Source of the DNA: a virus
Length of the DNA: 36,670 bases
IMG/VR virus record: IMGVR_UViG_3300037808_000363
Location: 1-36,670 of that record
Direction: 5' to 3' (one strand)
Notes under the pieces: model-generated
Seen by the model: only the letters and a program-made list of their open reading frames with translations
Databases searched by the model: none
Told to the model about the DNA's origin: nothing
Program-made: the position numbers and the translations under genes
Shown here: positions 5,378 to 36,670 of the stretch, piece by piece
How the letters are laid out: every line of letters starts with the position of its first letter
Position numbering within the stretch: the first letter of the stretch is position 1

Positions 5378-5381
5378 TTAA

Positions 5382-7103: not shown

Positions 7104-7738
7104 TGCCTTCAGTTGTAGCATTTCCCGCAATTACCCCTAACGCTTCTGAAATGGGAATAATAACCAATAGCAAGCAATTTATTTCACCGCTAACGGGTTA
7201 CACCCAAACGGCAAGCAGGAAGGGCGGCAGATGGTTCCTTCGTATGACGTTCAGCAATCTGCAAGGCTCACAGCGTAGCGTGTTACGCGGCTATCTTGCT
7301 TTTATGGAAGGTCAAGTAAACCGTATTTCTGTTGGCGATCATAGCTATACAGGAGCCAGAGGCGCGCTAGGAGGTACACCGCTGGTCAACGGGGGAAGTC
7401 AGGTCGGGACATCGTTGATTACCAACGGTTGGCCAGCATCTACATTAGTTTTGAGGGCTGGTGATCTGTTTAGCTTTAGCAACGGGACATATAGCGAATT
7501 AAAACAGGTAACCAGTGACGGGACCAGCGATGCAAGCGGAAACCTTACGATATCTATTGCTCCAGAAATTCACACGTCACCAGCAACCACTGCGGCTATT
7601 GTCACAGCGTCACCCGTTGGCACGTTCATGTTGGCTTCGCCCACTATTAGCTGGACGAACAGACCTTCGCAGTCGGGCGGTGTATCGTCGCCTCTATCTG
7701 ATCTGTCTATTGATTTGCTTGAGGACATAGGAACATGA
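7103..7738 (+). CDS. Distal tail/baseplate protein, DUF2460-like position
   Basis: A 211-residue beta-rich protein immediately after the tape measure. The order of this gene, a DUF2163-like protein, an NlpC/P60-like protein and a large tip protein mirrors gene transfer agent genes g12-g15. It begins with a hydrophobic, proline-containing segment and ends with a region (ASPTISWTNRPSQSGGVSS) suited to packing in a hub ring. I assign it as a distal tail component mainly by position. The family match to DUF2460 is not certain. Confidence 0.6.
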   Translation: MPSVVAFPAITPNASEMGIITNSKQFISPLTGYTQTASRKGGRWFLRMTFSNLQGSQRSVLRGYLAFMEGQVNRISVGDHSYTGARGALGGTPLVNGGSQVGTSLITNGWPASTLVLRAGDLFSFSNGTYSELKQVTSDGTSDASGNLTISIAPEIHTSPATTAAIVTASPVGTFMLASPTISWTNRPSQSGGVSSPLSDLSIDLLEDIGT

Positions 7739-8382
7739 GCAGAGGTCTAGCCACAGCCGTTACCGATGACATTGCCGCCGAGAGGCAGGTAAGGTTAGTG
7801 ACATTCGCCAAGCTGCAATTTGATTCGGGGACTGTCTATCTTCACGATTCGGTTGGTACTTATTCTTGGGCTGATCCCGTGGACGGTACGCAAAATTGGT
7901 TAGGTGTTGGGGATTTTGGTGGAATCGGCGCGGTAGAAGAAAACGCAGAAATGAGCAGTTACGAAATCACGTTGGTATTGTCAGGGTTAGATGCTGGTCT
8001 GATGGACGAGGTATTGCAGCAACCCTACCAAGGGCGGGAGGTAACAATATACCTTGGCGCGCTCGATCTCGATAGTGGGCTACTATTGGCGACACCTGAC
8101 GAGATTTGGGGAGGTACGATGGATGTAGGCCGTATGACGTTAGGCTCGGGGCAAAATGCTATCGAGATAACGTGCGAGTCTGACTTTGCTAAGCTGAATA
8201 AGATTAACGGACGCACATTCTCCGACTCTGATTTGCAAGCTGAATTTTCAGGAGATACTTTTCTGCAATACTTAACAGCTATGAAAGACGCTAAGATAGT
8301 ATGGCGCGGCGAATCTCGAACCAGCTTTTCACCCCCGCCACCAAGTTACCCCGGCATCAATTGGCGGTTTCCTTGGCAATGA
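7735..8382 (+). CDS. Baseplate hub protein, DUF2163-like
   Basis: A 215-residue protein with an ATGA overlap with the preceding gene. Motifs such as RQVRLVTFAKLQFDSGTVYL, an EMSSYEITLVLSGLD segment and GREVTIYLGALD-like strands fit the N-terminal part of DUF2163 proteins (RcGTA gp13-type hub). In gene transfer agents this protein forms the baseplate hub and binds iron-sulphur through a C-terminal region. Here the C-terminus is a proline-rich tail (SFSPPPPSYPG) without a cysteine cluster, so that feature appears to be absent. Confidence 0.7.
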   Translation: MSRGLATAVTDDIAAERQVRLVTFAKLQFDSGTVYLHDSVGTYSWADPVDGTQNWLGVGDFGGIGAVEENAEMSSYEITLVLSGLDAGLMDEVLQQPYQGREVTIYLGALDLDSGLLLATPDEIWGGTMDVGRMTLGSGQNAIEITCESDFAKLNKINGRTFSDSDLQAEFSGDTFLQYLTAMKDAKIVWRGESRTSFSPPPPSYPGINWRFPWQ

Positions 8383-8771
8383 ACAGACACCAAGCGGTAC
8401 GGACAACAATGCTAGAATCAGCAAACGCACCGTTTGAGTTTGGCGAGATAGACTGCTGTTTGTTTGCGGCAAAAGTGGCGCACAAAGTAACGGGTATTGA
8501 TTATGCAATATTGTTTGATCACAAGAACGAAACCGAAGCGCAAGCGTATATTGACGAGCATGGTAGTATTGAAAAATTAGTAACGCATACGCTTGGTCGA
8601 GAACCTGTACCCGTTGAACAATTAAAAATGGGCGATCCGGTAATTGTGTCGTTGCCGATCATTGGGGATACGCTTGGCGTATTTACTGTTGATCAAGTAT
8701 TGTGCAAGTCACCAAATGGAACATTGCCAGTTAACATAAACCGAATTAAGAACGGGTGGAATCTTGCCTAA
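8379..8771 (+). CDS. NlpC/P60-like tail protein (DUF6950 type)
   Basis: A 130-residue protein starting at the ATG of an ATGA overlap. The block FEFGEIDCCLFAAKVAHKVT carries the D-C-x-L-F motif of the catalytic cysteine in the NlpC/P60/DUF6950 superfamily. The later segment GDPVIVSLPIIGDTLGVFTV resembles the strand region where the catalytic His would sit, but I do not see a clear His there, so it may be a degenerate, non-catalytic member. In related phages and gene transfer agents the gene at this position encodes a tail-associated peptidoglycan-acting or structural protein. Confidence 0.65.
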   Translation: MNRHQAVRTTMLESANAPFEFGEIDCCLFAAKVAHKVTGIDYAILFDHKNETEAQAYIDEHGSIEKLVTHTLGREPVPVEQLKMGDPVIVSLPIIGDTLGVFTVDQVLCKSPNGTLPVNINRIKNGWNLA

Positions 8772-11700
8772 CGCATTGGCTACAGTTATCGCAAAAGTTA
8801 TTGTTGGCGCTATTGCTGGCGCTACAGGTGTTGCCGTTGGTTCAGTCGCGGCGGGTGTCGTTGTTAGTGTTTACGCGGCAAGCATCATTGCATCTTTGGC
8901 GATTATCAGCGCGGTGGCAAAATCGTTTCAACCTGACATGCCATCAGATAACGCCGACATGAAGCGCGACATTGTTTTGCGCGGCGGCACCGAGGCAAGG
9001 AAAATAGTTTATGGCGAATCCGTTGTAGGCGGCGTGTTGGTTTATTCAAACATAACTGGCCCCGAAAATGCTTATCTTGTCACAGGCGTTGCACACGCGG
9101 GGCATCAAGTTTACAACATGACAGATGTTTATTTTGACGATGACGTAATTGCGCAAGCGCAAATAGGCAACAACGCAGGCGCAGCAGGCACGTTATCCAC
9201 CTACGATGATGGTTGGACTACAGGTACAACCGGACCTCATACAGGGCAAAATGCGTTAGTGTCTGGAAAATATTACAAAGCCGGTGACACATGGGTTTTG
9301 CTTGACCGTTACACTGGCCTTGAAACGCAAACTGCCAGCAGTTTTTTAACTCAGTTTTCAGATTTTGACGCGTTAGATCGTGGTCGAGGCATTTGCTATT
9401 CGGTTTATCATTTGGTGCTGAACGAGCAGAGTGAAAAAGTATGGGAGTCAGGATCACCGCGCAACTATAAAAGCAAGATACAAGGCAAGATCGTTTACAA
9501 TCCTGCGCTCGATGTAACCGCAGGAGCTTGGATTATCGCAAACGGCTTTGACCCATACAGCGTTTACACTGAAACTTACAAAGCGTATTCAACAAACCCT
9601 ATCTTGTGTGCAGTTGATTACATGATCGACAATCAAAACGGTATGGGTATAAGCCCTGCAAAAATTGATTGGGACGAAGTAGTATCAGAAGCTGCGTTTT
9701 GCGATAAACCAGTTGCCAACAGCGTAACGGGGGAACGTGAATCACGGTTTACGTGCAACGGTGTCTTATCAACTTTTGACACGCACAAGGTTAATTTGAT
9801 GCGCCTAATGAGTGCCTGTAACGGCAACATGGCGTACAAAAATGGCAAGTGGTTTATAAAAGCTGGTCGATTCAGTCAAGGTGATTCAGGCGTTACTAAC
9901 GGTAGTTTTGCCAGCGGCAATACCGGATGGACTAAATTCGGAACAGGAACTGCCGCCGAGTCAAGCGGTCGTCTGGAGTGTATCGCTACTTCAGGCAACA
10001 AGGTAGGGCGTTATCAACAACTGACCGGATTAACTGCGGGGTTTTTATATACAGTTAGCGCGTTAGCAGAAAATACAGGCGGGGTTCTTGGTGCGCTTGG
10101 CGAAGTCAATGTTACAACGGCAGCGGGAGATACGGGAACCGTTTTAGGCGGCGCATCTTTCAGCGTTTTGGCGGCTGACGGTAATCATCAATTTGAGTTT
10201 ATAGCCACAGGAACCACCGCCTATCTGAACTTATTTGTTAACGCGCCGATTGACGGGACAGTGTACTTCGATAACGTAGAATCATATTTAGTCGCAACTA
10301 AAACGTTAACCGCTGATTGGTTGCGCGACACTATCGGCGTTCAAACCAGTTTGACGAAGCAAGAACGGTTCAACGAAACAAAAGCGTTCTACTTTTCGTC
10401 AGTAGAAACTTACAAACAAGTTCAGTCATTGGAAGTGCACAGCGCCGTTAATCTCTCCCGCGATAATCAAGAGGTGTTGAGCAGGGAATTAAACCTACCG
10501 ATGACAAACACCGAAGATGAAGCGCAGCGGATTCAGTACAAGCTGTTGAAGATGAACGAGCGGCAAGTACGATTATCTGCTCCCTGCAATTACCTTGCGC
10601 TTGATCTCGCGGTTAATGATCGGGTGATGGTGACGATAGAAGAATTAGGGTATACACAAAAAGTATTCTTGGTTGAAGGTTGGACGTTGGTTGATGCCCA
10701 AGGCGGCGTTGATCTGGTATTAATTGAGGACGATGCTGATTATTGGCGCGATCCTGATACTAATGATTATGCGACACGAACGGCTATTGGGGTTCTTGTT
10801 CCTGCAACGCCTGAAGTTCCACCTCCGACAAATGTTACTCTTGTCGCCCGAGGCGGATTGCCAGACATGATTGTGAGTTGGACTGATCCGCAACCTTCTG
10901 TTCAATACGATTATGCGCAGGTATACAGAGCGACAAGCAACTCATTCGGTGCTGCTAGTCTATTAGTTGATACTCGGGCGAACACATACACAGATACGAC
11001 AGCCGTTTCTGGAACCACCTATTATTACTGGGTAAGGTCAAGACAAGGCGCTGAGTTTTCTGCGGAGGTTGCAACTACTCCAACAAATTCAACGGCTGCC
11101 GCGATCAATGCAGCAACTGCTACAAATGTCGAATGGTCTGGGGTTTTAAACGGGGCTGGAACAATCCCCTCAAACAATGCAACCGTGGGTGGCACCCTTG
11201 GTTTAGACATAAAAGACGAAGGCGGCACAACGATAGGTGACATCGATTCGCTTAACAAACACGCTCTCGGCGCATTGAAAGCGGCAAATTTTAACCCTTA
11301 TATGACTCTGGTTGATCCTGACAGAGATACACCTATTGGATGGTACGTTGGCGATCAAACAGGCTCCGGTACACATGCGCAAATCTTGGAGTACACTGAT
11401 GCAAACAAAAATATATTGAAGATGAATAGCGGATTCGGTGCCACGCTCGTTAGTCAAGCAATGAGGATAATTCCGGGCATGGATTTGATGGGGATCATTC
11501 GCTACGACTTGAGTGGTGCCAGCAGTATAAAATTCCCCGTGTTTGCTCTGGATGCTGAAGACCTTGGCGCAGATTACTTGACTATATGCACTACACCGAC
11601 GAACGCCGACCCAGAAGTGTTGGCTGCAACCCGAGAGGTTGGTGTCACCCTTAGTGCGATTGGGTCCACGACTTGGACAACTGCTGTGATGGCATTAACG

Positions 11701-11856
11701 CGACCCGATGTAACGGGTACATTTTTAAGCACACACACACCAAACGCGGAATGGTGCTCAGTCGGGGTTGTTCTGACTAGTGCTGTAGATATTCAGATTG
11801 ATTACATATATCTCTGGTGGCAACCGTCTGCGTATTTTTCATTTGGAGCACCTTAA
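8764..11856 (+). CDS. Tail tip / host-specificity protein with CBM-like and FN3 domains
   Basis: A 1030-residue protein. A TTG start at 8764, preceded by GGGTGGA, keeps the Gly/Ala/Val-rich hydrophobic N-terminus (residues 8-54) that is typical of gpJ/GTA gp15-type tip proteins; the first in-frame ATG would remove it. Residues about 60-370 carry the conserved tip core. An inserted carbohydrate-binding-like sandwich spans about 377-510 (VTNGSFASGNTGWTKF to GTVYFDNVESYLV). A tail tube-like core resumes, then a fibronectin type III domain lies at about 685-775 (PPTNVTLVARGG, YYYWVRSRQGAEFS). The C-terminal 250 residues look like a receptor-binding region. It is likely the central fibre that contacts the host. 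Confidence 0.8.
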   Translation: MPNALATVIAKVIVGAIAGATGVAVGSVAAGVVVSVYAASIIASLAIISAVAKSFQPDMPSDNADMKRDIVLRGGTEARKIVYGESVVGGVLVYSNITGPENAYLVTGVAHAGHQVYNMTDVYFDDDVIAQAQIGNNAGAAGTLSTYDDGWTTGTTGPHTGQNALVSGKYYKAGDTWVLLDRYTGLETQTASSFLTQFSDFDALDRGRGICYSVYHLVLNEQSEKVWESGSPRNYKSKIQGKIVYNPALDVTAGAWIIANGFDPYSVYTETYKAYSTNPILCAVDYMIDNQNGMGISPAKIDWDEVVSEAAFCDKPVANSVTGERESRFTCNGVLSTFDTHKVNLMRLMSACNGNMAYKNGKWFIKAGRFSQGDSGVTNGSFASGNTGWTKFGTGTAAESSGRLECIATSGNKVGRYQQLTGLTAGFLYTVSALAENTGGVLGALGEVNVTTAAGDTGTVLGGASFSVLAADGNHQFEFIATGTTAYLNLFVNAPIDGTVYFDNVESYLVATKTLTADWLRDTIGVQTSLTKQERFNETKAFYFSSVETYKQVQSLEVHSAVNLSRDNQEVLSRELNLPMTNTEDEAQRIQYKLLKMNERQVRLSAPCNYLALDLAVNDRVMVTIEELGYTQKVFLVEGWTLVDAQGGVDLVLIEDDADYWRDPDTNDYATRTAIGVLVPATPEVPPPTNVTLVARGGLPDMIVSWTDPQPSVQYDYAQVYRATSNSFGAASLLVDTRANTYTDTTAVSGTTYYYWVRSRQGAEFSAEVATTPTNSTAAAINAATATNVEWSGVLNGAGTIPSNNATVGGTLGLDIKDEGGTTIGDIDSLNKHALGALKAANFNPYMTLVDPDRDTPIGWYVGDQTGSGTHAQILEYTDANKNILKMNSGFGATLVSQAMRIIPGMDLMGIIRYDLSGASSIKFPVFALDAEDLGADYLTICTTPTNADPEVLAATREVGVTLSAIGSTTWTTAVMALTRPDVTGTFLSTHTPNAEWCSVGVVLTSAVDIQIDYIYLWWQPSAYFSFGAP

Positions 11857-13244
11857 TGGCGGCACTAGCTGACGGAACATTTGCTTTTGATGGTAGTGGA
11901 CATCTATTGTATGTCCGCTATACCAGTTCTTGGAAACAGGTCAAGGCTCCTTGGGATGGCTCAACAGTTGCATCAGGCACAATCACAACGCTTGGTTCAA
12001 CAACGATAAACGCCACAACGCTGAACGGCACTATCGGTACAGCAGCACAACCAAACATAACAAGCGTAGGTTCATTAACTGCTTTAACTGTTCAGGCTTC
12101 GGGCGCTGATATAAATATATCTAATACGTCAGAATCGACCAGCGGGTTAAACGTTTATGACAGCGCAGCGCCCACAAGCCAATTTATGCACCTCGACTAC
12201 GATGCTTCCGCTAACAACGTTCTTTGCAACACCTCCGGTTCTTGGCATTTTCGAATTTCAGGTACTAATATACTCACCTTTGGCAACACTGATACGACCA
12301 TTTCAAACAATCTGCGCTTACCGTCAGGTAATATAAACGCGACACAGGCGGCAAGTACAAATTATGCTGTTAAAGCTGGCGCAACACACGCTAGTTATTC
12401 CTCAGAAATTATGCAAAGTGTTTCCACGCGAAGTGCTAATTCATCGTTTAAATTTCTAGCTACGCGCTCAAGCGCGGGAGCGGATTTAGAGCATAATCTG
12501 AGAGGTGATGGCAACGGTTATTGTGATGGAGCATGGACGGGCGGCGGTGCTGACTTTGCTGAATTTATGGAGTGGGCAGACGGTAACCCTCTCGATGAAG
12601 ATAGAACTGGTAGAACGGTTGCGGTTGCGGTTCAGGATACGACAGGACATATAACGCCGAAAATAAAAATAGCAGAGGCTGGCGATGTTGTGATCGGTGC
12701 TGTCAGTGCAAATCCTACTACAGTAGGGAATTCGGATTGGAATAAATGGCAAGGGAAATATTTAAAAAACAAATACGGTGGTTATTTAACAGAACTGGTT
12801 GATTATTACGTTTGGACAGAGCAACGCGCAATAATTCCAGAATCTAATCTTGAAGCGCAAAGGCGAATTGATCAGATTGATAAAATTGAGGGAGTGAATT
12901 CCAATCAAGATTTGCTGCAAGAAAAAGCAAAATTAATTTCTCGTATTGTGCCTGAGTCTGAGTATAAAAATGAAAATGTTGAAGTAAGCTATCTGGTTGA
13001 CGAAGTACCAAAAGATGTTGCCATTCCTGCCAATGTAAAAATCGAAAGTTTAGAAAGGCGCGTTTTAAATCCAGCATGGGACGGCACGAGTTCTGAGGAT
13101 CACCTTCCGCGATCGGAGAGAAAAGAATGGTCGCAGATCGGCATAGTAGGATTTGTAATTATTGATGACGGTCAGGTGACGGGCGATAACTGGATCAGTT
13201 TTGGATCGCTGGGCGAAGGCGTTTCCAGATGGTTGCTCAAGTAG
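11856..13244 (+). CDS. Tail fibre with C-terminal Peptidase_G2-type self-processing domain
   Basis: A 462-residue protein starting at the ATG in a TAATG overlap; an upstream ATG in frame at 11817 is inside the tip gene. Residues 40-80 contain the fibre repeat type NITSVGSLTALTV seen in trimeric beta-helical fibres. Residues about 230-462 begin GADFAEFMEWADGNPLDEDR and continue with VIGAVSANPTTVGNSDW and GKYL. This matches the Peptidase_G2 intramolecular chaperone domain of phi29/GA-1 gp12-type appendages, which folds the trimer and then cuts itself off. I infer a mature fibre of about 230 residues. Confidence 0.75.
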   Translation: MAALADGTFAFDGSGHLLYVRYTSSWKQVKAPWDGSTVASGTITTLGSTTINATTLNGTIGTAAQPNITSVGSLTALTVQASGADINISNTSESTSGLNVYDSAAPTSQFMHLDYDASANNVLCNTSGSWHFRISGTNILTFGNTDTTISNNLRLPSGNINATQAASTNYAVKAGATHASYSSEIMQSVSTRSANSSFKFLATRSSAGADLEHNLRGDGNGYCDGAWTGGGADFAEFMEWADGNPLDEDRTGRTVAVAVQDTTGHITPKIKIAEAGDVVIGAVSANPTTVGNSDWNKWQGKYLKNKYGGYLTELVDYYVWTEQRAIIPESNLEAQRRIDQIDKIEGVNSNQDLLQEKAKLISRIVPESEYKNENVEVSYLVDEVPKDVAIPANVKIESLERRVLNPAWDGTSSEDHLPRSERKEWSQIGIVGFVIIDDGQVTGDNWISFGSLGEGVSRWLLK

Positions 13245-13588
13245 ATAGTGAAAGCCCGATGGATGACCAAATTCTGGTTTGGGTTGGTATCCTTGCCTCG
13301 CTGATCGGGTTGCTAGAGTTTGCGCGGCGCATGATTCTTGAGAATCAGAACCAGCGGCATCAGATAAAAAGAATTATCAGATTGTTGGATGATATTGAAA
13401 AGGTCCAGAACACGCTTGAAGATGTATTACTACACCCCGACGACAGCGGGTTTGGTGTTATCTGGTTAAGGAACGAGATTGATGAGTTAAAAGAAATCTG
13501 CTCAAAAATCGACCACCGGCAAAATGAACATATAAAGGCTGGGATTGATAGAATTGAAAAGGTTCTGGAGAAAATCACATATGACTGA
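13229..13588 (+). CDS. Small membrane protein with coiled coil (lysis region)
   Basis: A 119-residue protein with one predicted membrane span (about residues 14-33, LVWVGILASLIGLLEFARRM) followed by a long charged helical region (RIIRLLDDIEKVQNTLEDVL, IDELKEICSKIDHRQNEHIK). The ATG at 13229 overlaps the fibre gene end by 16 bases; an alternative ATG at 13259 (MDDQILVW) is possible. I do not recognise a family. Its place before another membrane protein and a holin suggests a lysis accessory or a spanin-like role. Confidence 0.55.
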   Translation: MVAQVDSESPMDDQILVWVGILASLIGLLEFARRMILENQNQRHQIKRIIRLLDDIEKVQNTLEDVLLHPDDSGFGVIWLRNEIDELKEICSKIDHRQNEHIKAGIDRIEKVLEKITYD

Positions 13589-13919
13589 TGAAAATAGACG
13601 CTCAACAGACGGGCATATTTATGTTCCGGTTTGGTTGGCTCCAATGTTGCTTGCTGCGTTTGTCGTTTTGGGCTTGGGCTATGTAGTTAGTCTCTCAGCA
13701 GATGACGCGCAGCAGCGGGTTGATGTCCACGCATCATCTGCTGACGTTAGGATTGTAAAACTCGAGGACAGTTCGAAAGCTCAACATACGAATATGCTGC
13801 TGATCAAACAGGAGCTTGAGTACCTTACTGACGAAGTTGGAAAAGCCGCTAACAGCAGCGAAACGAATAACCACCTGCTCAACCGGATTGCAAACAAGCT
13901 CGATGTAGAGATGGATTGA
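13581..13919 (+). CDS. Small membrane protein, possible lysis accessory
   Basis: A 112-residue protein from the ATG at 13581, overlapping the previous gene by 8 bases. It has a cytoplasmic N-terminus of about 17 residues, one strong membrane segment (VWLAPMLLAAFVVLGLGYVV) and a periplasmic region with coiled-coil character (VRIVKLEDSSKAQHTNMLLI, EYLTDEVGKAANSSETNNHL). No family is recognised. The N-in, C-out layout with a periplasmic helix would suit an inner-membrane spanin or a holin partner; this is inference. Confidence 0.55.
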   Translation: MTDENRRSTDGHIYVPVWLAPMLLAAFVVLGLGYVVSLSADDAQQRVDVHASSADVRIVKLEDSSKAQHTNMLLIKQELEYLTDEVGKAANSSETNNHLLNRIANKLDVEMD

Positions 13920-14320
13920 TGGACATTTTGGGCGTTGGCAAATTAGTTGGTTCAGTCATCAACGGGATTGGTGATCGCAGGGCAAGAAAGCATGAGCTAG
14001 AAAAAACCATCGACATGAAAAAGATCGAAGCGGCTGCGGCAATTGATAGCAGCGTTGTCGCGTTGCAGCTTGCTCAGATTGAGGTCAACAAGGCTGAAGC
14101 GGCCAGTCGGAATTTCTTCGTTTCGGGATGGCGACCATTTATTGGGTGGACTTGCGGATTCGCTTTACTCTACAACGTGATCTTCAGCCCTCTGCTTGAA
14201 GGCTTGGGATATCAAATGCCAGTGGTTGACCCTTCGTTATTGTATCCAGTGCTGCTCGGCATGTTGGGCTTGGGCGGTATGCGCTCGTTTGACAAAAGGA
14301 CTGGCAGCACCGCTAAGTAA
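13919..14320 (+). CDS. Holin, 3-TM GTA-type family
   Basis: A 133-residue protein with start at the ATG overlapping the previous TGA; a TTG at 13916 is in frame. The N-terminal half is amphipathic and charged, the centre has the family hallmark FFVSGWRPFIGWTCGFALLY, and a second hydrophobic segment (LLYPVLLGMLGLGGMRSFDK) ends the protein. This matches the holin-of-3TMs family found in gene transfer agents and many proteobacterial phages. It would form membrane lesions that release or activate the lysis enzyme. It is the last gene of the late block. Confidence 0.8.
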   Translation: MDILGVGKLVGSVINGIGDRRARKHELEKTIDMKKIEAAAAIDSSVVALQLAQIEVNKAEAASRNFFVSGWRPFIGWTCGFALLYNVIFSPLLEGLGYQMPVVDPSLLYPVLLGMLGLGGMRSFDKRTGSTAK

Positions 14321-24485: not shown

Positions 24486-24619
24486 AGCTAATTGTGACTA
24501 TTATCACGATCATATTACTCAGCGGTTGCAAGACACTACCCACTCCGTTTGATACAGGGCCAGAGGTATCCCCGCCGATAGGTTGTGTTGAAGGTAGGGA
24601 GCGCAGCGTTGACTGTTAA
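24482..24619 (+). CDS. Rz1-like outer-membrane lipoprotein (o-spanin candidate)
   Basis: A 45-residue protein overlapping the previous stop (ATGA). The N-terminus MKLIVTIITIILLSGC is a lipoprotein signal with lipobox L-L-S-G-C (Cys16). The mature part is short and proline-rich (KTLPTPFDTGPEVSPP), the hallmark of Rz1-type outer-membrane spanins that help disrupt the outer membrane. It implies a Gram-negative host. Confidence 0.7.
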   Translation: MKLIVTIITIILLSGCKTLPTPFDTGPEVSPPIGCVEGRERSVDC

Positions 24620-25001
24620 AAAAACCGACCTTCAGCAGATTCAAGACTATGTGCAATGGCGTTTTGATTACACCTCAGATATTGAACAGCGAGGATTGCC
24701 AGAGCATTGGGTTGGCGTTTCAGAGCTTAAAGATTTAGACAGCATGGCTCGACGCACGTTTAAAGATGATTGTGACGGTCACGCTTTAGCTTGTAGATAT
24801 CAATGTCGGAAATTGGGTATCCCGAGTCGACTCGTTTTTTGTCAAACAGAAACGCACGAATACCATTTAGTTTTAGAGGTCGAGGGGTGGATTTTGGACA
24901 ACAGACGGAGGTGGGTTATTGACCGCGGTCATTGTGAGTATAATTGGATCAGCATAAGTAGTTTTGATGAGGGGGGGCCTTGGCATGAGGTCTATCATTA
25001 A
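24609..25001 (+). CDS. Transglutaminase-like cysteine peptidase (BTLCP-like)
   Basis: A 130-residue protein. The TTG at 24609 is spaced well from GGGAG; GTG at 24585 or TTG at 24588 would lengthen it. The catalytic set is clear: FKDDC(55)DGHALACRYQCRKLGI, TETHEYH(86)LVLEVEGWILD(97)NRRRW, giving a Cys-His-Asp triad as in bacterial transglutaminase-like cysteine peptidases. It has no signal peptide. Its place after DUF5675, a membrane protein and an Rz1-like lipoprotein makes it a candidate non-canonical lysis enzyme, though a role in peptide or protein processing is equally possible. Confidence 0.7.
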   Translation: MTVKKTDLQQIQDYVQWRFDYTSDIEQRGLPEHWVGVSELKDLDSMARRTFKDDCDGHALACRYQCRKLGIPSRLVFCQTETHEYHLVLEVEGWILDNRRRWVIDRGHCEYNWISISSFDEGGPWHEVYH

Positions 25002-27290: not shown

Positions 27291-27743
27291 ATGGCCAGAG
27301 GTAGAAAGCCAATGCCTGACGCTATTAGGCTTGTGAAGTACTCAAAGCCAGCCAAAGAGCGAATGAACCCAGACCAACCCGAGTACGGGATTGATATTCA
27401 ATGCCCAGAAACCTTCGACGAGGTCAGGCGCAAAGCTTGGTTTGAATTAGTGCCAAACTTAATCAGGGCTGGAGTAGCCAAAGAAGTCGATGTGTATTCG
27501 CTTGAGATGCTTGTAGAAAAATGGGTGGAATGGCGGGACGTGCAGGACAAAGTGAACACCACAGGTCTGGTGATAAAAGCCCCTTCCGGTTACCCGATCA
27601 TGAATCCTTACTACACAATGTCGATGCAGATAGGAAAGGAAGTCGGAAGAATGTTGTCTGAGTTCGGTATGACTCCATCGAGTCGCCAGCGGGTTGTAGC
27701 AGACAAGCCAAAGAAAGTTAGCGAGTTTTCTGACATATCATGA
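27291..27743 (+). CDS. terS: Terminase small subunit, P27 family
   Basis: A 150-residue DNA-binding subunit of the packaging motor. It has a basic N-terminus (MARGRKPMPDAIRLVK), a helical core with RRKAWFELVPNLIRAGVAKE, then NTTGLVIKAPSGYPIMNPYY, the conserved P27 motif, and MLSEFGMTPSSRQRV. The ribosome site AGAGGGGG is strong. A TACAAT at 27265 could be a -10 box, but no -35 is seen at the proper spacing. The stop overlaps the large subunit start (ATGA). Confidence 0.85.
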   Translation: MARGRKPMPDAIRLVKYSKPAKERMNPDQPEYGIDIQCPETFDEVRRKAWFELVPNLIRAGVAKEVDVYSLEMLVEKWVEWRDVQDKVNTTGLVIKAPSGYPIMNPYYTMSMQIGKEVGRMLSEFGMTPSSRQRVVADKPKKVSEFSDIS

Positions 27744-29404
27744 CTGACTATCCTCATTGCCGTGACGCATGGGGCTATGCCAACGATGTTCGTGACGGAA
27801 CAATTCCAGCGTGTCGGTATATCAAGCTGGCTGTCGAAAGATTCTTTAAAGACATGGAACGCGAAGACCTATTTTTTGATTACGACAAGGCAGAAAAGTT
27901 CTGTAATTTTTGTGGTCACCTCCCGCACGTAAAAGGACGATGGGCGCAAGATAACCAGAAGCTTGAACTGGAGGCGTGGCAGAAATTTAAATTTATAAAT
28001 TTGTTTGGGCTTTACAGAATATCCACCGGAAAGCGAAAATATCAGGAAGTTTTAAATTTAATCCCACGCAAAAACGGAAAGTCTATTGATGCTTCTGCGG
28101 TGGCTTTATTCATGCTGACTTCGGATGGAGAATTTGGGAGCGAGGTCTATTGCGGAGCGCGGAGCGAGAAACAAGCGAATGAGGTTTTTACACCAGCGAA
28201 GCAGATGCTGAAAAGAAATTCGAGCTTGGCAAAATTTCTAGACCTGTCAGTACAGAAGCAGAGTATATTTCGGGAGTCTGATAATTCATTTTTTCAGCGA
28301 GTTATCGGTGACCCGCCAGACGGGACATCACCTCACTGCGGGATTGTGGACGAGTATCACGAACACAAAAAAGATTCTGTGTATAAAACATTTCAGACGG
28401 GGATGGGAGCGCGAGACAATCCTTTGCTCTACGTGATTACAACGGCGGGTGATAACATAAATGGGCCATGTCATGAAAAAGTACAGGAGTGCATACAGAT
28501 ATTGGAAGGAGTGTTGACCGACGATCATGCTGACTCAACATTGGTGTTGATTTATACGATTGACGATGACGCGCCCGAAGATTTTTGGAAGACTGAAAAC
28601 GCGCTGAGAATGGCAAACCCGAACTATGATGTTTCATTGTCTGGTGACTGGCTCAAGAAACAGCAATTACAGGCGATACGGTCTGCGAAGGATCAGGGAT
28701 TCTTTAAGACAAAGCATTTGAATATATGGGTCAATCAAACTGAACCATTCGTTAACTTTGAGGACTGGAAAAAGTGCGGCGATGATGACTTAAAGATTGA
28801 AGATTATCTGATGCATCCTTGCGTGATGGGTGTAGACCTGTCGAGCCGAATAGACTTCACCGCCAGCTGCAAATGCTTCTATGAAGATGACGCAGATGGC
28901 AAGCGGCACTATTATTTGTTCCCAGAATTCTGGTTGCCCGAAGAGGCATCACGAGAGTATCCAGCGTGGCGTGATTACATCAACTTCACTGAAGGCAACG
29001 AGATAGATACAGCTGCTGTGAAGAAGAATATTAAGTCTGATTTAGACAATTATATGATTGATGAAATCACCTTCGACCCGTGGAAGTCAGCAGGGTTCGA
29101 GCAGGAACTTGCGGATCATGGTGCAGAAATAACCAAGTTCCCTCAGACAATTGGGCAATATACGATGCCCATGAATGAATTTGAAGCTGCTATAATAAGT
29201 GGTAGACTCCACCACAATAACAATCCGGTTATGAACTGGATGCTTACAAATCTTCATGCGAAGCGCGACACAAACGGTAACTGCAAGCCGCGCAAGGAAG
29301 ATCAGAAAAAGAAAATTGATGGCATGGTTGCCGCAATAATGGCCCTCGGTAGATGTATGCAAACCGAGGAACAGGCTTTCAGCCCAACTATTTTAACAAT
29401 TTGA
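27740..29404 (+). CDS. terL: Terminase large subunit, HK97 type
   Basis: A 554-residue packaging ATPase and nuclease. The ATPase motif PRKNGKS (109-115) is the deviant Walker A, and GIVDE (201-205) is Walker B with the catalytic Glu. The nuclease domain begins at GVDLSS (364-369) with its first metal-binding Asp; further acidic residues lie around EITFDPW and the C-terminal KKKIDGMVAAIMALG. This is the Terminase_1/HK97 gp2-like family. It is coupled to terS by ATGA overlap. Confidence 0.92.
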   Translation: MTDYPHCRDAWGYANDVRDGTIPACRYIKLAVERFFKDMEREDLFFDYDKAEKFCNFCGHLPHVKGRWAQDNQKLELEAWQKFKFINLFGLYRISTGKRKYQEVLNLIPRKNGKSIDASAVALFMLTSDGEFGSEVYCGARSEKQANEVFTPAKQMLKRNSSLAKFLDLSVQKQSIFRESDNSFFQRVIGDPPDGTSPHCGIVDEYHEHKKDSVYKTFQTGMGARDNPLLYVITTAGDNINGPCHEKVQECIQILEGVLTDDHADSTLVLIYTIDDDAPEDFWKTENALRMANPNYDVSLSGDWLKKQQLQAIRSAKDQGFFKTKHLNIWVNQTEPFVNFEDWKKCGDDDLKIEDYLMHPCVMGVDLSSRIDFTASCKCFYEDDADGKRHYYLFPEFWLPEEASREYPAWRDYINFTEGNEIDTAAVKKNIKSDLDNYMIDEITFDPWKSAGFEQELADHGAEITKFPQTIGQYTMPMNEFEAAIISGRLHHNNNPVMNWMLTNLHAKRDTNGNCKPRKEDQKKKIDGMVAAIMALGRCMQTEEQAFSPTILTI

Positions 29405-29414: not shown

Positions 29415-29705
29415 TTGGAAAAGTTATTCACAGCACAGACAACAAACGACACGACTGCCAGCAATATAATCACAGCTACTGGGCGGGAGCTAACCGTACA
29501 AGCGTGGGGAACATGGGGCGGCGCAACGCTGTCTGTTTACCTTTCGGTAGATGGCACCAACGGCGTTCTTTTAAGTGACTTGACTTTAACCGCTGACGGA
29601 ATGGTTGCTATTCAAGTTCCATCTGGCAATAGAGTTTGGGCAACGCTCACGGGGGTCGGAACTTCCAGCGTTAACTGCTGGATCAACGGGCAAGGAAAAG
29701 ACTAA
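29415..29705 (+). CDS. Small beta-sandwich protein next to the lectin-like protein
   Basis: A 96-residue protein with a TTG start at 29415 positioned 7 bases after GAGGA. Strongly beta in pattern (RELTVQAWGTWGGATLSVYL, GVLLSDLTLTADGMVAIQVP, RVWATLTGVGTSSVNCWING). It is similar in style to the sandwich regions at 1063-1491 and 3707-4411. Coupled to the giant gene that follows, it may be a capsid or tail surface subunit. The function is unknown. Confidence 0.6.
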   Translation: MEKLFTAQTTNDTTASNIITATGRELTVQAWGTWGGATLSVYLSVDGTNGVLLSDLTLTADGMVAIQVPSGNRVWATLTGVGTSSVNCWINGQGKD

Positions 29706-32700
29706 TGCGCTTAGTCGAACGGGTGACGAAGCGTGTTGCATACTCACCTGCGTCAACACCTGTCACAGACCCGCGACACAAGGCTTTAGCTAGATTCTTC
29801 TGGAAGGGCACTCACACCCTAGCAGCCACCACTGGCACAACCCCCACATTCACCCGAGCCACTTCTGCGACATTTGAAGACTTTGAAGGCTTAATCAAGA
29901 CGGCTGAGAGCAGTGAGCCGAGGTTTGTTGGTGCTAGGCGGGTAGAGAATCTGCTTACCGCTAGTGAGGATATGACGAATGCGGCTTATGCTGACCAACT
30001 CGGAGCGGTAAGCGCAGCCACACAGACCGTATTTGACGGAACTGCCAACGGCAGCGTGTATCAACTTGTAACGATAACTGATGATGGTTCCGGTGTTGGC
30101 GGGAGGACTTTTGTATTCTCTGCTGAGATTGCGCTGGTTTCAGGAACGCTCACAAGCGGGACGGATATTCGTATACAAGGCAATGCGATGACAGCCGTAA
30201 CGAGCGATATTTCTTCGCTGATTACAGCAACACCGCAAAGGTTCTCAGTGACCGCATCTACAGATGCCGCAGGAACAAACGTCGAGCCAATTATCCGTTG
30301 CGACGATGCAGCCACTCTCTTAATCACCAACTGGCAACTAGAAGAAGTCACAGGCCAGACCAATCAGAATCCCAGCGAGTACGTGTCAACAGGGGTTGCT
30401 ACTGGGCCTGAGTTAGTGACTAACGGTGCCTTCAGTAACGGGACTACTGATTGGACTGCTTTATACGGGACGCAAAGTGTTGTTGGTGGACAGCTAGAAG
30501 TTATCTCAGACGGCAGTGTTAGTTCAGCGAGATCGTATCAAATTATCACATGCCTAGTAGGGAAGACGTATCTCGTAAGCGGGTACATTAATCCTCTAGG
30601 GGGCATAACTGCTCAAATATTGGTGAACATAAACACGAACACTGGTAGCCCTTCAGGGACAACCGGCATACAAGCGAGCGCAGGAACTTACTCGTTCACA
30701 TTTATCGCGACCCAAACGAACATGTATGTGACATTAGCGCCGTCCACGACAACCTCAGGGTTTGGTGGTGCTTTCGACAACATCTCCGTCAAAGAAGCCT
30801 CCCACGGCGCTAACATAGACGGTGTCCAGTACTTCAACACGCTCAACGCTAACACAGTCATTGCTGGAGTTGTCACAGAGGCCACGGGTAGTGCGTTAAC
30901 GTCAGCGACTACGCAGTTCATGGAGTTTGACGGTGTTAGTGGGACGTATGTCTCTACGCCTGACAGCGTGGCTAACAGCATCAGGCAGTCGATTACCATT
31001 GAGGCCGATTGTGCTGCTGATGATTGGGATCTTGCAACGTTTCAAACCTTAAATTCCAAGTGGGGAAGCGGAGTTTCTTGGCTTTTGGTGATTATAGGGG
31101 GGCGTTTACGTTTATATATTGGGAATAATAGTTCTCAACCAAGTGTAAACTCCTCTTTATTAGGCTTTAGTGACGGGACAAGACATAAGGTGCGGGCGGC
31201 CTACGACGCGCTAACACAGATAGTCACCTTCTCTGAGTTCGTTGATGGCGATTGGATAGTAATCAGTTCTGGCGCAATAGCTGCCCCCTTTATTGATGAC
31301 AACTCTAACCCAGCACAGATTGGTGGGTGGTCTTCTGGCATAAACCCCTTCAACGGAAAAATCTACTCCTCAACAGTCACTAAAGGCCCGACCCCTTACC
31401 CTTATGTATTACTAGATGGTGTCTCAGGGACGTATGTCTCCACGCCTGATAGTGCGGCTAATAGTGTTACGGGTGACTTGACGCTGATTGCTTGGGCGGC
31501 GCTGGATGATTGGACTCCAACCTCCCACGTGGCTATTGCCACGAAGTGGAGATCGGCTGGAGATGAAAGATCCTTCATGCTCCGAATGGCTCCTGACGGT
31601 AAGATGCAATTCAATACTACTAGCGACGGGAGCATGGCTACCAATCTCTCGTCTCTTTCTACAGTTACCACAGGATTCACTGACGGTACTGGACACTGGG
31701 TTAGGCTTAGTTTAGATATCTCGGCAGGAACTGTTAACTTTTTCACGTCTGACCAACCGTCCGACACGCCAATATCCAGTTTGTCTTGGGTACAGTTAGG
31801 CGGTGCGAATGTTGTCCATGCGCAGACGGCGATATTTGACGGCACAGCCACCACACAGGTTGGCGCTTACGATAACACTGTAAGCAGACTATCAGGAAAA
31901 GTCGCCCGCGCAGTAGTCATAAAATCCACAGACCCCACAGCCGCCGCATCGGTAGACTTCTACCCACAACCCTACCTCCAAGGCGACACCAACTTCACCT
32001 CTGTCACTGGTGAACTCTGGACACTTCAAGGTAACGCTATAGCCACATCACCTATTGATGACGGGGTCAAGGTAGACTGTGACGCTGGTGACTATGTATC
32101 AGGCAGCACCTTCGTCTCATCGACATCAGGCGAGACATGGACACTGAACGGCAATGCCTCTGTATTCCAGCCTCCGGTCGATGCATCTGGGCCATTTGGT
32201 TATCTGGCTGAGGGGGCTAGGACTAATATCCTGCTTCAGTCGAATGACCTGTCTACCACTTGGTCAAACACCAGCAACTCAGTAGACGTTCAGAATTATG
32301 CCATCGCCCCAGATGGCAGCAGTACCGGCCAAAGGATTATAGATAGCTCGGTCGGCGGCACTGGCTCCGTGAGGATGCACCAAGCCATTGGGTCGCTTTC
32401 TACAACCACGCAGTATGTTTACAGCGCATTCTTCAAAGCGGATCAGTTGGGTTTCGTAAAAATGGCCGCCTCCAGCTTTACGATTGCAACTCCGATCGCC
32501 TTTTTTGATCTGACCAACGGGTTGGTTGGAACTGGATCAAACACTGATTCGGCGGCGATAGAATCTGTTGGCAATGGCTGGTATCGCTGCTGGATATCGT
32601 TTACCACAGACGCGTCTGACATTGCTGGTGATATTAATATTTATGTTGCAGATTCAGTAAGTAACGCAACAGTAGACCTAGACGGCACATCCTCCATCCT

Positions 32701-33244
32701 AGTATGGGGCGCTCAACTAGAAGCAGGATCATTCCCATCATCATACATAGCAACCGCTGCCGCTGCCGTCACAAGAAATGCTGACACTCTTTCATCAAGC
32801 CTGAATGAGGTCTATCCGCTGACAGTCTACGTAGAGACTGTACAGTCTGTTGACCAATCGGCAGGAACGTCACAAAGTAACATATTCTCAGTCAACGAAA
32901 ACACGGTACACAGTCAGGACGAATTCTTCATCAGGACGAAACAGTCCACAGTAGATTATCAGGGTGCGGTCTATAGCGGCAGCACGGTGGTAGTAAATAT
33001 TACTGGAGGCGCTCCTGCTGTGGGGGTTCTCAGAACGCTGACAATGGCAGTCGCGTTGAACGATGTTGAGGTGTACGTTGACGGCGTATCAGTCGGCAGT
33101 GACACCTCCGCAGCATTGCCAGCCGCCCCGACCCTGATGAATATCGGCATGACGGTCTATGGTGGTTATCAAGCCTACGGCACTGTACGTAACGTCAAAC
33201 TCTTCGATGAGCGCCTGACTGACGCAGAGGTGGCAGACTTATGA
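29705..33244 (+). CDS. Giant multidomain lectin-like structural protein (1179 aa)
   Basis: The largest gene, unusually placed between terminase and portal. An N-terminal module (TFTRATSATFEDFEG, then PRFVGARRVENLLTASEDMT) is followed by carbohydrate-binding-like sandwiches (about 235-370, LVTNGAFSNGTTDWTALYG to FDNISVKE), two laminin-G/concanavalin-like units (about 405-560 and 566-730) that both begin DGVSGTYVSTPDS, a second copy of the N-terminal type (FGYLAEGARTNILLQSNDLS, about 840) and a C-terminal concanavalin-like domain ending VRNVKLFDERLTDAEVADL. I infer a surface glycan-binding protein, on head or tail. Confidence 0.7.
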   Translation: MRLVERVTKRVAYSPASTPVTDPRHKALARFFWKGTHTLAATTGTTPTFTRATSATFEDFEGLIKTAESSEPRFVGARRVENLLTASEDMTNAAYADQLGAVSAATQTVFDGTANGSVYQLVTITDDGSGVGGRTFVFSAEIALVSGTLTSGTDIRIQGNAMTAVTSDISSLITATPQRFSVTASTDAAGTNVEPIIRCDDAATLLITNWQLEEVTGQTNQNPSEYVSTGVATGPELVTNGAFSNGTTDWTALYGTQSVVGGQLEVISDGSVSSARSYQIITCLVGKTYLVSGYINPLGGITAQILVNINTNTGSPSGTTGIQASAGTYSFTFIATQTNMYVTLAPSTTTSGFGGAFDNISVKEASHGANIDGVQYFNTLNANTVIAGVVTEATGSALTSATTQFMEFDGVSGTYVSTPDSVANSIRQSITIEADCAADDWDLATFQTLNSKWGSGVSWLLVIIGGRLRLYIGNNSSQPSVNSSLLGFSDGTRHKVRAAYDALTQIVTFSEFVDGDWIVISSGAIAAPFIDDNSNPAQIGGWSSGINPFNGKIYSSTVTKGPTPYPYVLLDGVSGTYVSTPDSAANSVTGDLTLIAWAALDDWTPTSHVAIATKWRSAGDERSFMLRMAPDGKMQFNTTSDGSMATNLSSLSTVTTGFTDGTGHWVRLSLDISAGTVNFFTSDQPSDTPISSLSWVQLGGANVVHAQTAIFDGTATTQVGAYDNTVSRLSGKVARAVVIKSTDPTAAASVDFYPQPYLQGDTNFTSVTGELWTLQGNAIATSPIDDGVKVDCDAGDYVSGSTFVSSTSGETWTLNGNASVFQPPVDASGPFGYLAEGARTNILLQSNDLSTTWSNTSNSVDVQNYAIAPDGSSTGQRIIDSSVGGTGSVRMHQAIGSLSTTTQYVYSAFFKADQLGFVKMAASSFTIATPIAFFDLTNGLVGTGSNTDSAAIESVGNGWYRCWISFTTDASDIAGDINIYVADSVSNATVDLDGTSSILVWGAQLEAGSFPSSYIATAAAAVTRNADTLSSSLNEVYPLTVYVETVQSVDQSAGTSQSNIFSVNENTVHSQDEFFIRTKQSTVDYQGAVYSGSTVVVNITGGAPAVGVLRTLTMAVALNDVEVYVDGVSVGSDTSAALPAAPTLMNIGMTVYGGYQAYGTVRNVKLFDERLTDAEVADL

Positions 33245-33846
33245 TGTGGTACATATCAATCTGTGAAGACCTCCCCGCCCTGATAGCCACCGGATTAGTG
33301 GACGAGGATTCACCCCTGCGGGGAATGATCGACGGCAGGAGTGGTAACTACGTTTGCACCAACGCTAATGCGAGGCTGGTCAGTGCGGATGGCACAAAGT
33401 CGATGGTTATCATCACTAGCCTTGAAGGCTTGGATGAGATTATCGAGCTTCCCTACATCATCATCACGACTCCCGAGGTTGTGTTTGGTTATGTTGAGCA
33501 GGAGACTGATGAAGACGGTAATCTCTTATGGGGGCCGTGGTACTGGGTGCAGCCACCTGACTACACGGTCACTACTGACCATTGGGTAGATACAGGAGAG
33601 GTAGACGAGAACGGGTTTCCAATCTACGAGAACGAACCAACAACGGAAACCATCACGCCGCCACCTTACGAGACAAGAGATCCGATTACGCAGGACGTAC
33701 CACCGGATCCAGTGATGAGGGCCTTGTATGACTCGATTTACGATCAGTCGCCAGTGCCTAATCCTGAAGATCCCACGGCCCCACCGACGATCCCATCTCA
33801 GTTCTTCGCGCTGCCGGGCGGGTATGACCCGAGCCATTTGCTTTGA
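33241..33846 (+). CDS. Acidic partner of the giant lectin-like protein, unknown
   Basis: A 201-residue protein coupled to the previous gene by an ATGA overlap. The first 70 residues look like a compact alpha/beta domain (LVSADGTKSMVIITSLEGLD). The rest is acidic and rich in Pro and Tyr (WYWVQPPDYTVTTDHWVDTG, PNPEDPTAPPTIPSQFFALP) and probably extended. The location suggests a chaperone or attachment partner for the giant protein. No family is recognised. Confidence 0.5.
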   Translation: MMWYISICEDLPALIATGLVDEDSPLRGMIDGRSGNYVCTNANARLVSADGTKSMVIITSLEGLDEIIELPYIIITTPEVVFGYVEQETDEDGNLLWGPWYWVQPPDYTVTTDHWVDTGEVDENGFPIYENEPTTETITPPPYETRDPITQDVPPDPVMRALYDSIYDQSPVPNPEDPTAPPTIPSQFFALPGGYDPSHLL

Positions 33847-33863
33847 TCGTTAACATAAAAATT

Positions 33864-34016
33864 ATGCTGCTAATGCTGACGGAAGTATCGGGAATATTTT
33901 TGATGAGCTATGGTGCTTGGCTGTGGCAACCGCCAGCAGGTTTTTTTCTTGCGGGACTTCTTTTATACGCAGAGGTGAATAATGTTTTCAAGATTCCTCG
34001 AACAACGCGGGATTGA
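33864..34016 (+). CDS. Small membrane protein overlapping the portal start
   Basis: A 50-residue frame with a strongly hydrophobic middle, SGIFLMSYGAWLWQPPAGFF followed by LAGLLLYAE. The Y-G-x-W-L-x-x-P-P-A-G-F arrangement between two hydrophobic stretches resembles small membrane proteins seen in many siphophage genomes. A TTG at 33843 (overlapping the previous TGA) would add seven residues. It overlaps the first 35 bases of the portal gene. The function is unknown. Confidence 0.55.
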   Translation: MLLMLTEVSGIFLMSYGAWLWQPPAGFFLAGLLLYAEVNNVFKIPRTTRD

Positions 34017-35511
34017 ACAAACCATCGGCAATGCATCTGCGTTTGCGCGGTGGTTGCTCGATAATAGTGGCGGCGATAATTCGTCTGGCGTAAATGTCAA
34101 TGAGACAAGTGCGTTAGCCCTTACCTACGTCTATGCCTGTATCAATGTTCTGTCGCAGACCTTGGCTCATGTTCCGCTTGAGCTAATGAAAGATGGCAAC
34201 AAAGGACCGCAGAAGGCGAAGAATCACCCTCTTTATAATCTGATGAAGATTGCGCCCAATCAAAAGTATTCGTCGTACGATTGGCGTGAAACGATGGAAG
34301 GTCATCGGAATGGTTGGGGTAATAGTTATTCAGCAATTATTCGAGATAATGGCAGACCCGTTTCCATCGAGATACTTTATCCTGACAGCACCACCCCGAG
34401 GACTCTTGCGGCGGACGGATCAATTATTTATGAATCAACGGGAGATTCAGGGTCAACGCCTGACATGCTGCACTTTGCAGGGCTTGGGTGGGATGGTATT
34501 CAAGGTTATTCCCCGATTCAAAAGGCGAAGGAGGCTATTGGTCTTGGCCTTGCTATTCATCAGTTCGGTGGTAACTTTTTCAGAAACGGTGCTTCACCAA
34601 AAGGCATTATTGAATCAGAGGTTCCACCGAATACGCTTGCGCCGTTTGTCGAGCAGTTTAAAAAACAGTATGGCGGATTAGAGCAATCGAATGGTACGCC
34701 GATCTTGCCGAAGGGACTGACTTACAAATCTATTTCAATAAATCCCGATGACGCGCAGACACTTGAGACTTTAAAGCTCAATCGAACAGAAATAGCAGGA
34801 ATGTTTCGTGTACCTCCACAATTTATTATGGACCTTGAGCGCAGCACGTTTACGAATGCAGCGGAAATGGATCTGCATTTTGTCAAACACACCATGACCC
34901 CTATTTTTACAAATTGGGAATCGGAGTTAAACCGAAAGCTGTTAACTGAAAAAGAACGGCGGCTCGGGTATTATTTCAAATTCAATGACAAGGGGTTGCT
35001 AAGAGGGGCGACTACAGAAAGATTCGCAGCTTATCATACAGCCTTGCAAGACGGCTGGATGAACAGAAACGAGGTCAGGCAGTTAGAGGAATTGGAAACA
35101 CAGGCGGGGCTTGATGAGTTCCTTGTGCCTAACAACATGGTTCATTCTGACGTAATGCCCAGTGCGGGTGATGTTATGGAAGAAATATCACCGCCAGAGC
35201 AACCCTTGGTTGAGTCTGTCGCGGAACGAATGGCATCAAATGAACGTAAAACAATAGAACGGCTGGGCGAAGATGTTGAAGGGGTCGCCAGTTTTTATTC
35301 GGAGTATCCCAAATTTATTGAACGAGTTTTGATGCCGTTGGCTAAAATGATGGATTCACAGTTGAATTGTGGCGCGGATGATTTCGTGCGAGAATTCACA
35401 AAACGGCACATTGATAAACAGTTAGGCCAAATGATCAACCGCGTAGGCGAGCTTGATGTTACTGAACGGGCAATCGTTGAAACATTTTACGAGGTGAAGA
35501 ATGGGCATTAA
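33982..35511 (+). CDS. Portal protein, HK97 family
   Basis: A 509-residue protein that forms the dodecameric DNA channel at one capsid vertex. Conserved features include ALALTYVYACINVLSQTLAH with VPLELM, NGWGNSYSAIIRDNGRPVSI, then IQKAKEAIGLGLAIHQFGGN and FFRNGASPKGIIE, and FRVPPQFIMDLERSTFTNAA near the end of the core. About 110 residues of additional helical C-terminus (SNERKTIERLGEDVEGVASF onward) extend beyond the usual core. The prohead protease gene overlaps its 3' end. Confidence 0.9.
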   Translation: MFSRFLEQRGIEQTIGNASAFARWLLDNSGGDNSSGVNVNETSALALTYVYACINVLSQTLAHVPLELMKDGNKGPQKAKNHPLYNLMKIAPNQKYSSYDWRETMEGHRNGWGNSYSAIIRDNGRPVSIEILYPDSTTPRTLAADGSIIYESTGDSGSTPDMLHFAGLGWDGIQGYSPIQKAKEAIGLGLAIHQFGGNFFRNGASPKGIIESEVPPNTLAPFVEQFKKQYGGLEQSNGTPILPKGLTYKSISINPDDAQTLETLKLNRTEIAGMFRVPPQFIMDLERSTFTNAAEMDLHFVKHTMTPIFTNWESELNRKLLTEKERRLGYYFKFNDKGLLRGATTERFAAYHTALQDGWMNRNEVRQLEELETQAGLDEFLVPNNMVHSDVMPSAGDVMEEISPPEQPLVESVAERMASNERKTIERLGEDVEGVASFYSEYPKFIERVLMPLAKMMDSQLNCGADDFVREFTKRHIDKQLGQMINRVGELDVTERAIVETFYEVKNGH

Positions 35512-36247
35512 AACAGAAGAACGAAGATTCACAAGCAGGAAGGTCGAGGTTAGATCAGAGTCGGAGGACAGCAAGCAGATTGTTGGCTACGGCGCGGTGT
35601 TTGAATCGAGGTCAGAAGATTTGGGCGGGTTCGTCGAGATCATAGAGCGCGGCGCTTTTGATGATGTGCTTAATGATGATGTTCGTGCGCTTTTCAATCA
35701 TGACAACAACATCATTTTGGGTCGCAGCATATCAGGGACGTTAAAACTGTCTGTTGATGATGTTGGCCTTAGATACGAGATTGACCCACCGGATACTCAA
35801 ATGGTCAGGGACATGGTCCTTGAACCTATGCGGCGAGGCGATGTCACGCAAAGCTCGTTCGGCTTTTATGTCGGTGAAGATGATTGGCAGGAAGATCGAA
35901 ATGGTGTCGTGACAAGATCAATCAAGAGTGTTGATCGGCTAATGGATGTTTCACCAGTAACCTATGCAGCTTATCCAGATACAGAAGTTGCGTTGAGAAA
36001 GCTCAATGCATTCACTGATAAATCGTCAAAGTTTGCGGCAGAACTAGCGAGCGATGATACTGACGTTCTTGAGTTAATCGAACGGGCTATGAACCAATTA
36101 TCAAACTCTAATGCCACGCTACATATTGAAGTGGGAAAAATTATGGAACTTGCACTGTCTGAATTGACTGAGGCAAGGGTCACAATAGGCCGAAAAAATA
36201 AGGCAATTGAGCTTTATGAACGGCTGTCAAAATTAAATCCAGCGTAG
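35501..36247 (+). CDS. Prohead protease, HK97 family (S78/U35)
   Basis: A 248-residue maturation protease. N-terminal IVGYGAVFESRSEDLGGFVE, the catalytic His in ALFNH(67)DNNIILGR, and VTQSSFGF with the catalytic Ser118 or Ser119 are typical of the family; the last member of the triad is less obvious. The C-terminal 75 residues are helical (ELIERAMNQLSNSNATLHIE). It removes the capsid scaffolding domain encoded directly downstream. The ribosome site GAGGTGAAG lies in the portal gene end. Confidence 0.88.
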   Translation: MGIKTEERRFTSRKVEVRSESEDSKQIVGYGAVFESRSEDLGGFVEIIERGAFDDVLNDDVRALFNHDNNIILGRSISGTLKLSVDDVGLRYEIDPPDTQMVRDMVLEPMRRGDVTQSSFGFYVGEDDWQEDRNGVVTRSIKSVDRLMDVSPVTYAAYPDTEVALRKLNAFTDKSSKFAAELASDDTDVLELIERAMNQLSNSNATLHIEVGKIMELALSELTEARVTIGRKNKAIELYERLSKLNPA

Positions 36248-36280: not shown

Positions 36281-36670
36281 ATGGACTTGAATCAAAAACT
36301 GACTGACTTCCGTGAGGAAGAGGTTTTAAAAAGAAGTCGGGCTGCCGATCTTGCAGGTAAGGCTGGCAAAGAAGACTTAACCAGTGATGAGCTTTCAGAG
36401 CTTTCGGAAATCGAACAAAGAATCGGTTTCCTCCACGATCAACAGCAAGGCATTGAGCGATCACAAAAAATCGGTGCATTTAGCCCGAACGTGAACGACA
36501 AAGCTGGCATGAACAGCAAAGAGCAGCGGGAATTTTCAATGCTCAAACTGATCAAGGCTTCTGCTCGTGACGCTACTCGCAAGGATCGTGACGATGCCGC
36601 AATGGAACTTGAGTTGTCTGCTGACGTTGAAAAACGAATTGGCGTTGCACCTCGTGGTGTCTATCTGCCA
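36281..36670 (+). CDS. Major capsid protein, N-terminal part with scaffolding delta domain (runs off window end)
   Basis: This is the first 130 codons of the capsid gene. The ATG at 36281 follows CAGGAG with good spacing. The first 90 or so residues are strongly charged and helical (LSELSEIEQRI, FLHDQQQGIE). In this family such a segment is the delta domain, which acts as an internal scaffold and is removed by the prohead protease encoded just upstream. The last 127 bases duplicate the first 127 bases of the window apart from the final base, so the gene continues at position 128 and stops at 1039. Confidence 0.9.
   Translation, partial: MDLNQKLTDFREEEVLKRSRAADLAGKAGKEDLTSDELSELSEIEQRIGFLHDQQQGIERSQKIGAFSPNVNDKAGMNSKEQREFSMLKLIKASARDATRKDRDDAAMELELSADVEKRIGVAPRGVYLP
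36544..36670 (+). repeat. Terminal overlap, second copy
   Basis: Second copy of the terminal overlap, within the capsid gene. An overlap of 127 bases is typical of graph-based assembly of a circle, so it need not be a biological terminal repeat. Confidence 0.95.

Follow-up and report, generated by a model that had tools for sequence, protein, structure and literature searches.

Receptor binding by phages is discussed mostly for their tails. In the gene transfer agent of Rhodobacter (RcGTA), the head also carries a spike, in which a jelly-roll base protein forms a pentamer on the capsid pentamers. A single flexible fibre, attached to this base through the fibre's own N-terminal peptide (residues 2-10), binds the capsule and so provides a first, reversible attachment, after which the tail fibres act (PMC7296036; PMC10218006). 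Head-first attachment has also been discussed for HFTV1 (PMC9973310). Similar pairs of a small gene and a fibre gene are found in the Rhodobacter phages RcapMu (gp57/gp58) and RcapNL (gp29/gp30), where they lie at the end of the tail module. RcapMu gp57 matches the RcGTA base Rcc01079 (6tb9, E 1e-5), and RcapNL gp30 starts with GLGLGIGLGL, which is akin to the star peptide of RcGTA. In addition, a spike-fibre-like domain is present in the pbunavirus proteins E217 gp45 and Pa193 gp46, which are components of the tail baseplate. The NCBIfam family NF048003 (GTA_spike_fiber), named for the RcGTA head spike fibre, is carried by RcapMu gp58 and by a much longer protein, o1179, encoded in the DNA analysed here, a virus record from IMG/VR of 36,670 nucleotides (hereafter, the window).

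Genome and Insertion Site

The window has a direct repeat of about 126 bp at its two ends (1-126 and 36544-36669), so the record probably covers a circular genome in full (about 36.5 kb), with an MCP gene that is split by the window ends (36281-36670 and 1-1039). The open reading frames and the family matches give the gene order terS, terL (27740-29404), o96, o1179, o201, o57, portal (33982-35511), protease (35501-36247) and MCP, and TerL, portal, protease and MCP have strong PHROGs and Pfam matches. An earlier note on this DNA had described a 4.6-kb block of four translationally coupled genes between terminase and portal. Such a block is present, its reading frames lie where they had been placed and the family matches are strong. 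Its members are o96 (29415..29705, + strand, with a TTG start), o1179 (29705..33244, +) and o201 (33241..33846, +), but not the small membrane protein o57 (33843..34016, +; phrog_502), because in the relative L004 (TerL 70% identical) TerL overlaps o57, the portal comes next and the site is otherwise empty; o57 is a core gene, and its presence at an empty site ruled it out as a cassette member. The insert consists of three genes, 29415-33846, about 4.43 kb. Coupling holds within the block, with overlaps of 1 nt (o96/o1179), 4 nt (o1179/o201), 4 nt (o201/o57) and 35 nt (o57/portal), but not at its upstream edge, where TerL and o96 are close without overlap, separated by a 10-nt gap with a Shine-Dalgarno-like GAGGA.

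The assumption that terminase and portal are normally adjacent is borne out by other genomes. Among the 46 IMG/VR loci having both TerL and portal relatives, the estimated interval between the two genes is 407 bp or less in 35, and in Psychrobacter phage Psymv2, Acinetobacter phage AbIPP1 and Synechococcus phage Ssp-JY37 they are adjacent or one small gene apart. In these 46 loci, adhesin-type genes occupy the interval only in the clade of the window (L003, L005 and L029), and the remaining long intervals are taken up by rearranged head genes or by unrelated ones. Therefore, the insert is not a matter of chance. Within the clade, the site is occupied in L005 and L029 by o96 and by shorter relatives of o1179, and L003 (TerL 84% identical) has a different three-gene set followed by o57 and the portal. 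These comparisons, together with the empty site of L004, show that the position between TerL and portal is a variable cassette position in the window clade, and that the cassette is clade-specific.

The products of the L003 cassette (5705-10561) are a tail-fibre-repeat protein of 1150 aa, which over its C-terminal 158 residues shares 78% identity with a protein found in L085 and L087, viruses of the P62 type; a Gly-rich protein of 336 aa; and a third protein of 124 aa. In L032, a distant relative, the genes at the TerL-portal site (1122-6425) look by eye like those of a glycosyltransferase, an RmlD-like sugar reductase and a sulfotransferase, and are a possible glycan-modification set.

Domains of o1179

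A Pfam scan of o1179 at its whole length gave no match, and LamG (Laminin_G_3, a family of concanavalin-like lectins) was revealed when the protein was cut into segments. A first spike-fibre-like domain (29825..30412, +) matches NF048003 below the cut-off (E 1e-5), and its counterparts in L029 and L005 match it above the cut-off. It is followed by a CBM-like module, residues 236-366 (30410..30802, +), which in a one-to-one comparison resembles the RcapNL gp30 body (E 3e-7), and by two tandem LamG-like segments (30881..32020, +), which are an internal duplication (E 1e-18) and match Laminin_G_3 just below its curated cut-off (residues 413-553, E 6e-5; residues about 575-681, E 5e-6). A second spike-fibre domain, residues 834-1026 (32204..32782, +), matches Rcc01080 and, above the cut-off, NF048003 (E 6e-43 with the whole protein and 1e-43 with the segment). 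The C-terminal LamG segment, residues 1054-1177 (32864..33235, +), is the sole LamG segment above the curated cut-off of Laminin_G_3 (E 8e-8, 33.1 bits versus 27.6).

NF048003 is present in all of the aligned o1179 relatives (10/10). The closest solved structure is the RcGTA head spike fiber Rcc01080 (6tb9, E 4e-20), and the next are the pbunavirus baseplate proteins (E about 1e-12), whose match is limited to residues 834-1067 and whose gene context is different. o1179 is very probably a virion adhesin, and it is plausible that it binds glycan through its LamG and CBM-like modules. The earlier suggestion of a glycan-binding surface-adhesion module apart from the tail tip is well supported by the LamG and GTA spike-fibre domains, by the exchangeable body described below and by a tail module that has a J-like tip protein and a fibre of its own; as to mucus and matrix, which had been proposed as what it sticks to, nothing points specifically to either.

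The RcGTA spike (Rcc01079 and Rcc01080) shares with the window the NF048003 fibre domain, the pairing of a small gene with a fibre gene, a body of glycan-binding type and a presumed N-terminal docking. However, o1179 has 1179 aa and Rcc01080 has 325 aa; the former is extended by CBM-like and LamG segments and by a further spike-fibre domain, and the spike genes of the window lie between TerL and portal, unlike those of RcGTA. The small gene and the fibre gene of RcapMu and RcapNL overlap by 1 nt, as o96 and o1179 do, although their fibres are much shorter than o1179.

Exchange of the Adhesin Body

In L093 and L094, which are of a virus type with a TerL unrelated to that of the window, the DNA is 96% identical over 29795-30428 (0.64 kb), that is, from codon 31 of o1179, and the N-terminal anchors differ. 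In L029, the portal is 97%, o96 95% and the stretch of the first 25 residues of o1179 80% identical to those of the window, but the first domain is only 22% and the C-terminal domain 20% identical, and residues 236-366 and about 393-800 are missing. The L002 DNA is 99.9% identical to the window up to 30412 (codon 236) and continues with another module, so the CBM-like module is replaced in L002, and it is absent in L029 and L005. Internal o1179 modules thus differ even between near-identical phages, and the reading frame is kept through the exchange. The adhesin bodies of L059, L061-L063, L085, L087, L093 and L094 are like that of o1179, with o201 beside most of them, whereas these loci have other N-terminal anchors and a portal of phrog_1216; in L059, which is of the same virus type as L093 and L094, o201 is 95% identical.

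On these identities, the body modules and o201 are traded between virus types, and codons 1-30 of o1179 (29705..29794, +) are a virion-specific anchor. A receptor-binding protein would be expected to show just such an exchange of bodies on anchors. A scan of genome contigs gave no host; its only spike relatives were three distant ones in MAG contigs.

o96 and o201

o96 is present in only four other contigs, in all of which an o1179-type anchor lies directly downstream (4/4). It is absent from L003 and L004 of the window clade, and it was not found where the same body carries another anchor, namely in L059, L061-L063, L085, L087, L093 and L094. By this distribution o96 accompanies the anchor and not the body, and since it is confined to loci with the o1179-type anchor, it is likely to be the docking partner of that anchor. 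The AlphaFold model of o96 (from three sequences; pLDDT 66, moderate confidence) is all-beta, and gave only generic beta-sandwich and jelly-roll matches in the PDB and only small unnamed phage proteins in BFVD. Homology to the RcGTA base Rcc01079 was rejected because the hhalign comparison with that family, made with shallow profiles, was not significant, and homology to the 94-aa protein of the P62 type was rejected on a weak match that was not significant either. Neither o96 nor o201 has a match in named phages.

The acidic accessory protein o201 adjoins the adhesin body in unrelated virus types. Its AlphaFold model (pLDDT 73) has no fold match in the PDB, and its likeliest role is that of folding chaperone or tip protein. 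In L059 a 137-aa gene lies directly after o201 (8604-9001), and a stretch with 78% nt identity to it is found in the window at 24524-24921, about 8 kb away and upstream of TerL.

The leucine-glycine star peptide of the RcGTA type is absent from the o1179 anchor, in which hydrophobics at period 4 (3/5, shuffle p 0.47) are not above chance. Related proteins of the P62 type have this pattern at 5/5. In the spike N-termini of L061 (7860-7920), L062, L085 and L100, which have SIRQ-like repeats, five hydrophobics stand at an exact period of 4 (M1 I5 I9 I13 I17; shuffle p 0.0006-0.011), and this may be the five-point star peptide of RcGTA in a wider form.

Head or Tail

The adhesin cassette is real, clade-specific and exchangeable, and the best reading of it, by analogy, is that of an RcGTA-type head spike in enlarged form. 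The insert, its domain content, the gene coupling, the modular exchange, the breakpoint between anchor and body and the co-occurrence of o96 with the anchor are what the DNA itself shows; by comparison with RcGTA, the part of the base would fall to o96 and that of the fibre to o1179. There is an even chance that the insert is an exchangeable receptor-binding cassette for a two-part RcGTA-type surface spike on the head, and the probability that o1179 sits on the head is likewise evenly balanced. In such a spike, o96 (96 aa, all-beta), probably pentameric, would form the base on the capsid, to which codons 1-30 of o1179 would dock the fibre. The flexible body, with its spike-fibre domains, CBM-like module and LamG segments, would bind host surface polysaccharide, an initial and reversible contact made ahead of the tail tip, while o201 would move with the body as an accessory.

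The head reading is based on the RcGTA match, the layout of the gene pair, the complete tail module elsewhere and the placement among head genes in three virus types, and it has against it the baseplate relative in E217, the tail-fibre-like cassette of L003 and the Rcap pairs lying after tail genes. The head fibre that the earlier note had offered as an example therefore stands in part: the match to Rcc01080 and the layout lend it real support, but the position on the capsid is conjectural, a related domain is found in E217 gp45 and o96 has no demonstrable homology to the RcGTA base. Related spikes occur among head genes in two unrelated virus types, either after MCP or between TerL and portal, and in the P62 type a tail-fibre-like gene is within the same cluster as the spike. 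Since the spike pairs of RcapMu and RcapNL lie after tail genes, gene position is a weak guide, and it was rejected as proof of a location on the head.

A serious rival, possible though rather doubtful, is that the product of the cassette is carried by the tail, as one more side fibre or as a receptor-binding protein associated with the baseplate, that o96 and o201 serve it as adaptor and chaperone, and that the genes merely happen to lie between terminase and portal. E217 gp45, which has the related domain, is a baseplate triplex protein holding the tail fibre, and L003 has its tail-fibre-repeat protein at the same site; the Rcap gene positions also leave room for it. Furthermore, most annotated relatives of o1179 are called tail proteins, in PHROGs likewise, but the tail label of phrog_5939 is no evidence for a tail because that family covers RcapMu gp58, a homologue of the head-spike fibre Rcc01080. 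The best solved match of o1179 is that head spike fibre and not a baseplate protein, a gp45-type gene would be expected beside the tail fibre gene in the tail module whereas o1179 lies between TerL and portal, and the tail module of the window (3301-14320) already includes a J-like tip protein and a fibre, as had been noted before.

Inserted genes of such a kind are often morons, and PHROGs files the family of the neighbouring membrane protein o57 under moron/host takeover, so the products might be made in the infected cell and not be virion parts, for example as secreted or surface-exposed proteins that alter host adhesion or exclude other phages. This is improbable: o57 is a core gene not tied to the cassette, the N-termini of o1179 and o96, read by eye, have no evident secretion signal, and the genes are coupled to structural genes and belong to a domain family known from virion proteins. 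The fast turnover at the site, which is empty in L004 and different in L003, speaks for a decaying or transient recombination insert without its own function, but this explanation is highly improbable: every frame is open and they overlap, two relatives have o96 at 95% and 69% identity with the anchor retained, and the modules are exchanged in frame.

An RcGTA-type head spike is a known kind of structure, and what is new in the favoured reading is its size, the mix of modules, the candidate new base and the clear exchange between anchor and body. The locus makes a sequence case for a separate, modular and horizontally exchanged adhesin, possibly on the head. That it belongs to a siphophage whose plug-in cassette is a head spike in the style of RcGTA, in which o96 is a base of a new family that has a docking peptide of its own and large, recombining lectin-like bodies are swapped onto it between unrelated virus types, is a tentative proposal, with somewhat less than an even chance; if it is true, capsid-borne adhesins would be a horizontally traded determinant of host attachment, as tail fibres are. 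The breakpoint between anchor and body and the pairing of o96 with the anchor make the idea directly testable.

Public family labels name RcGTA-type head-spike proteins as tail proteins. Homologues of the RcGTA-type base and fibre in RcapMu (L126, 37916-39162) and RcapNL (L125, 20588-20845) fall into phrog_12296 and phrog_5939, which are labelled tail fiber protein and tail protein, respectively, yet the cryo-EM structure shows the RcGTA members to be head spikes.
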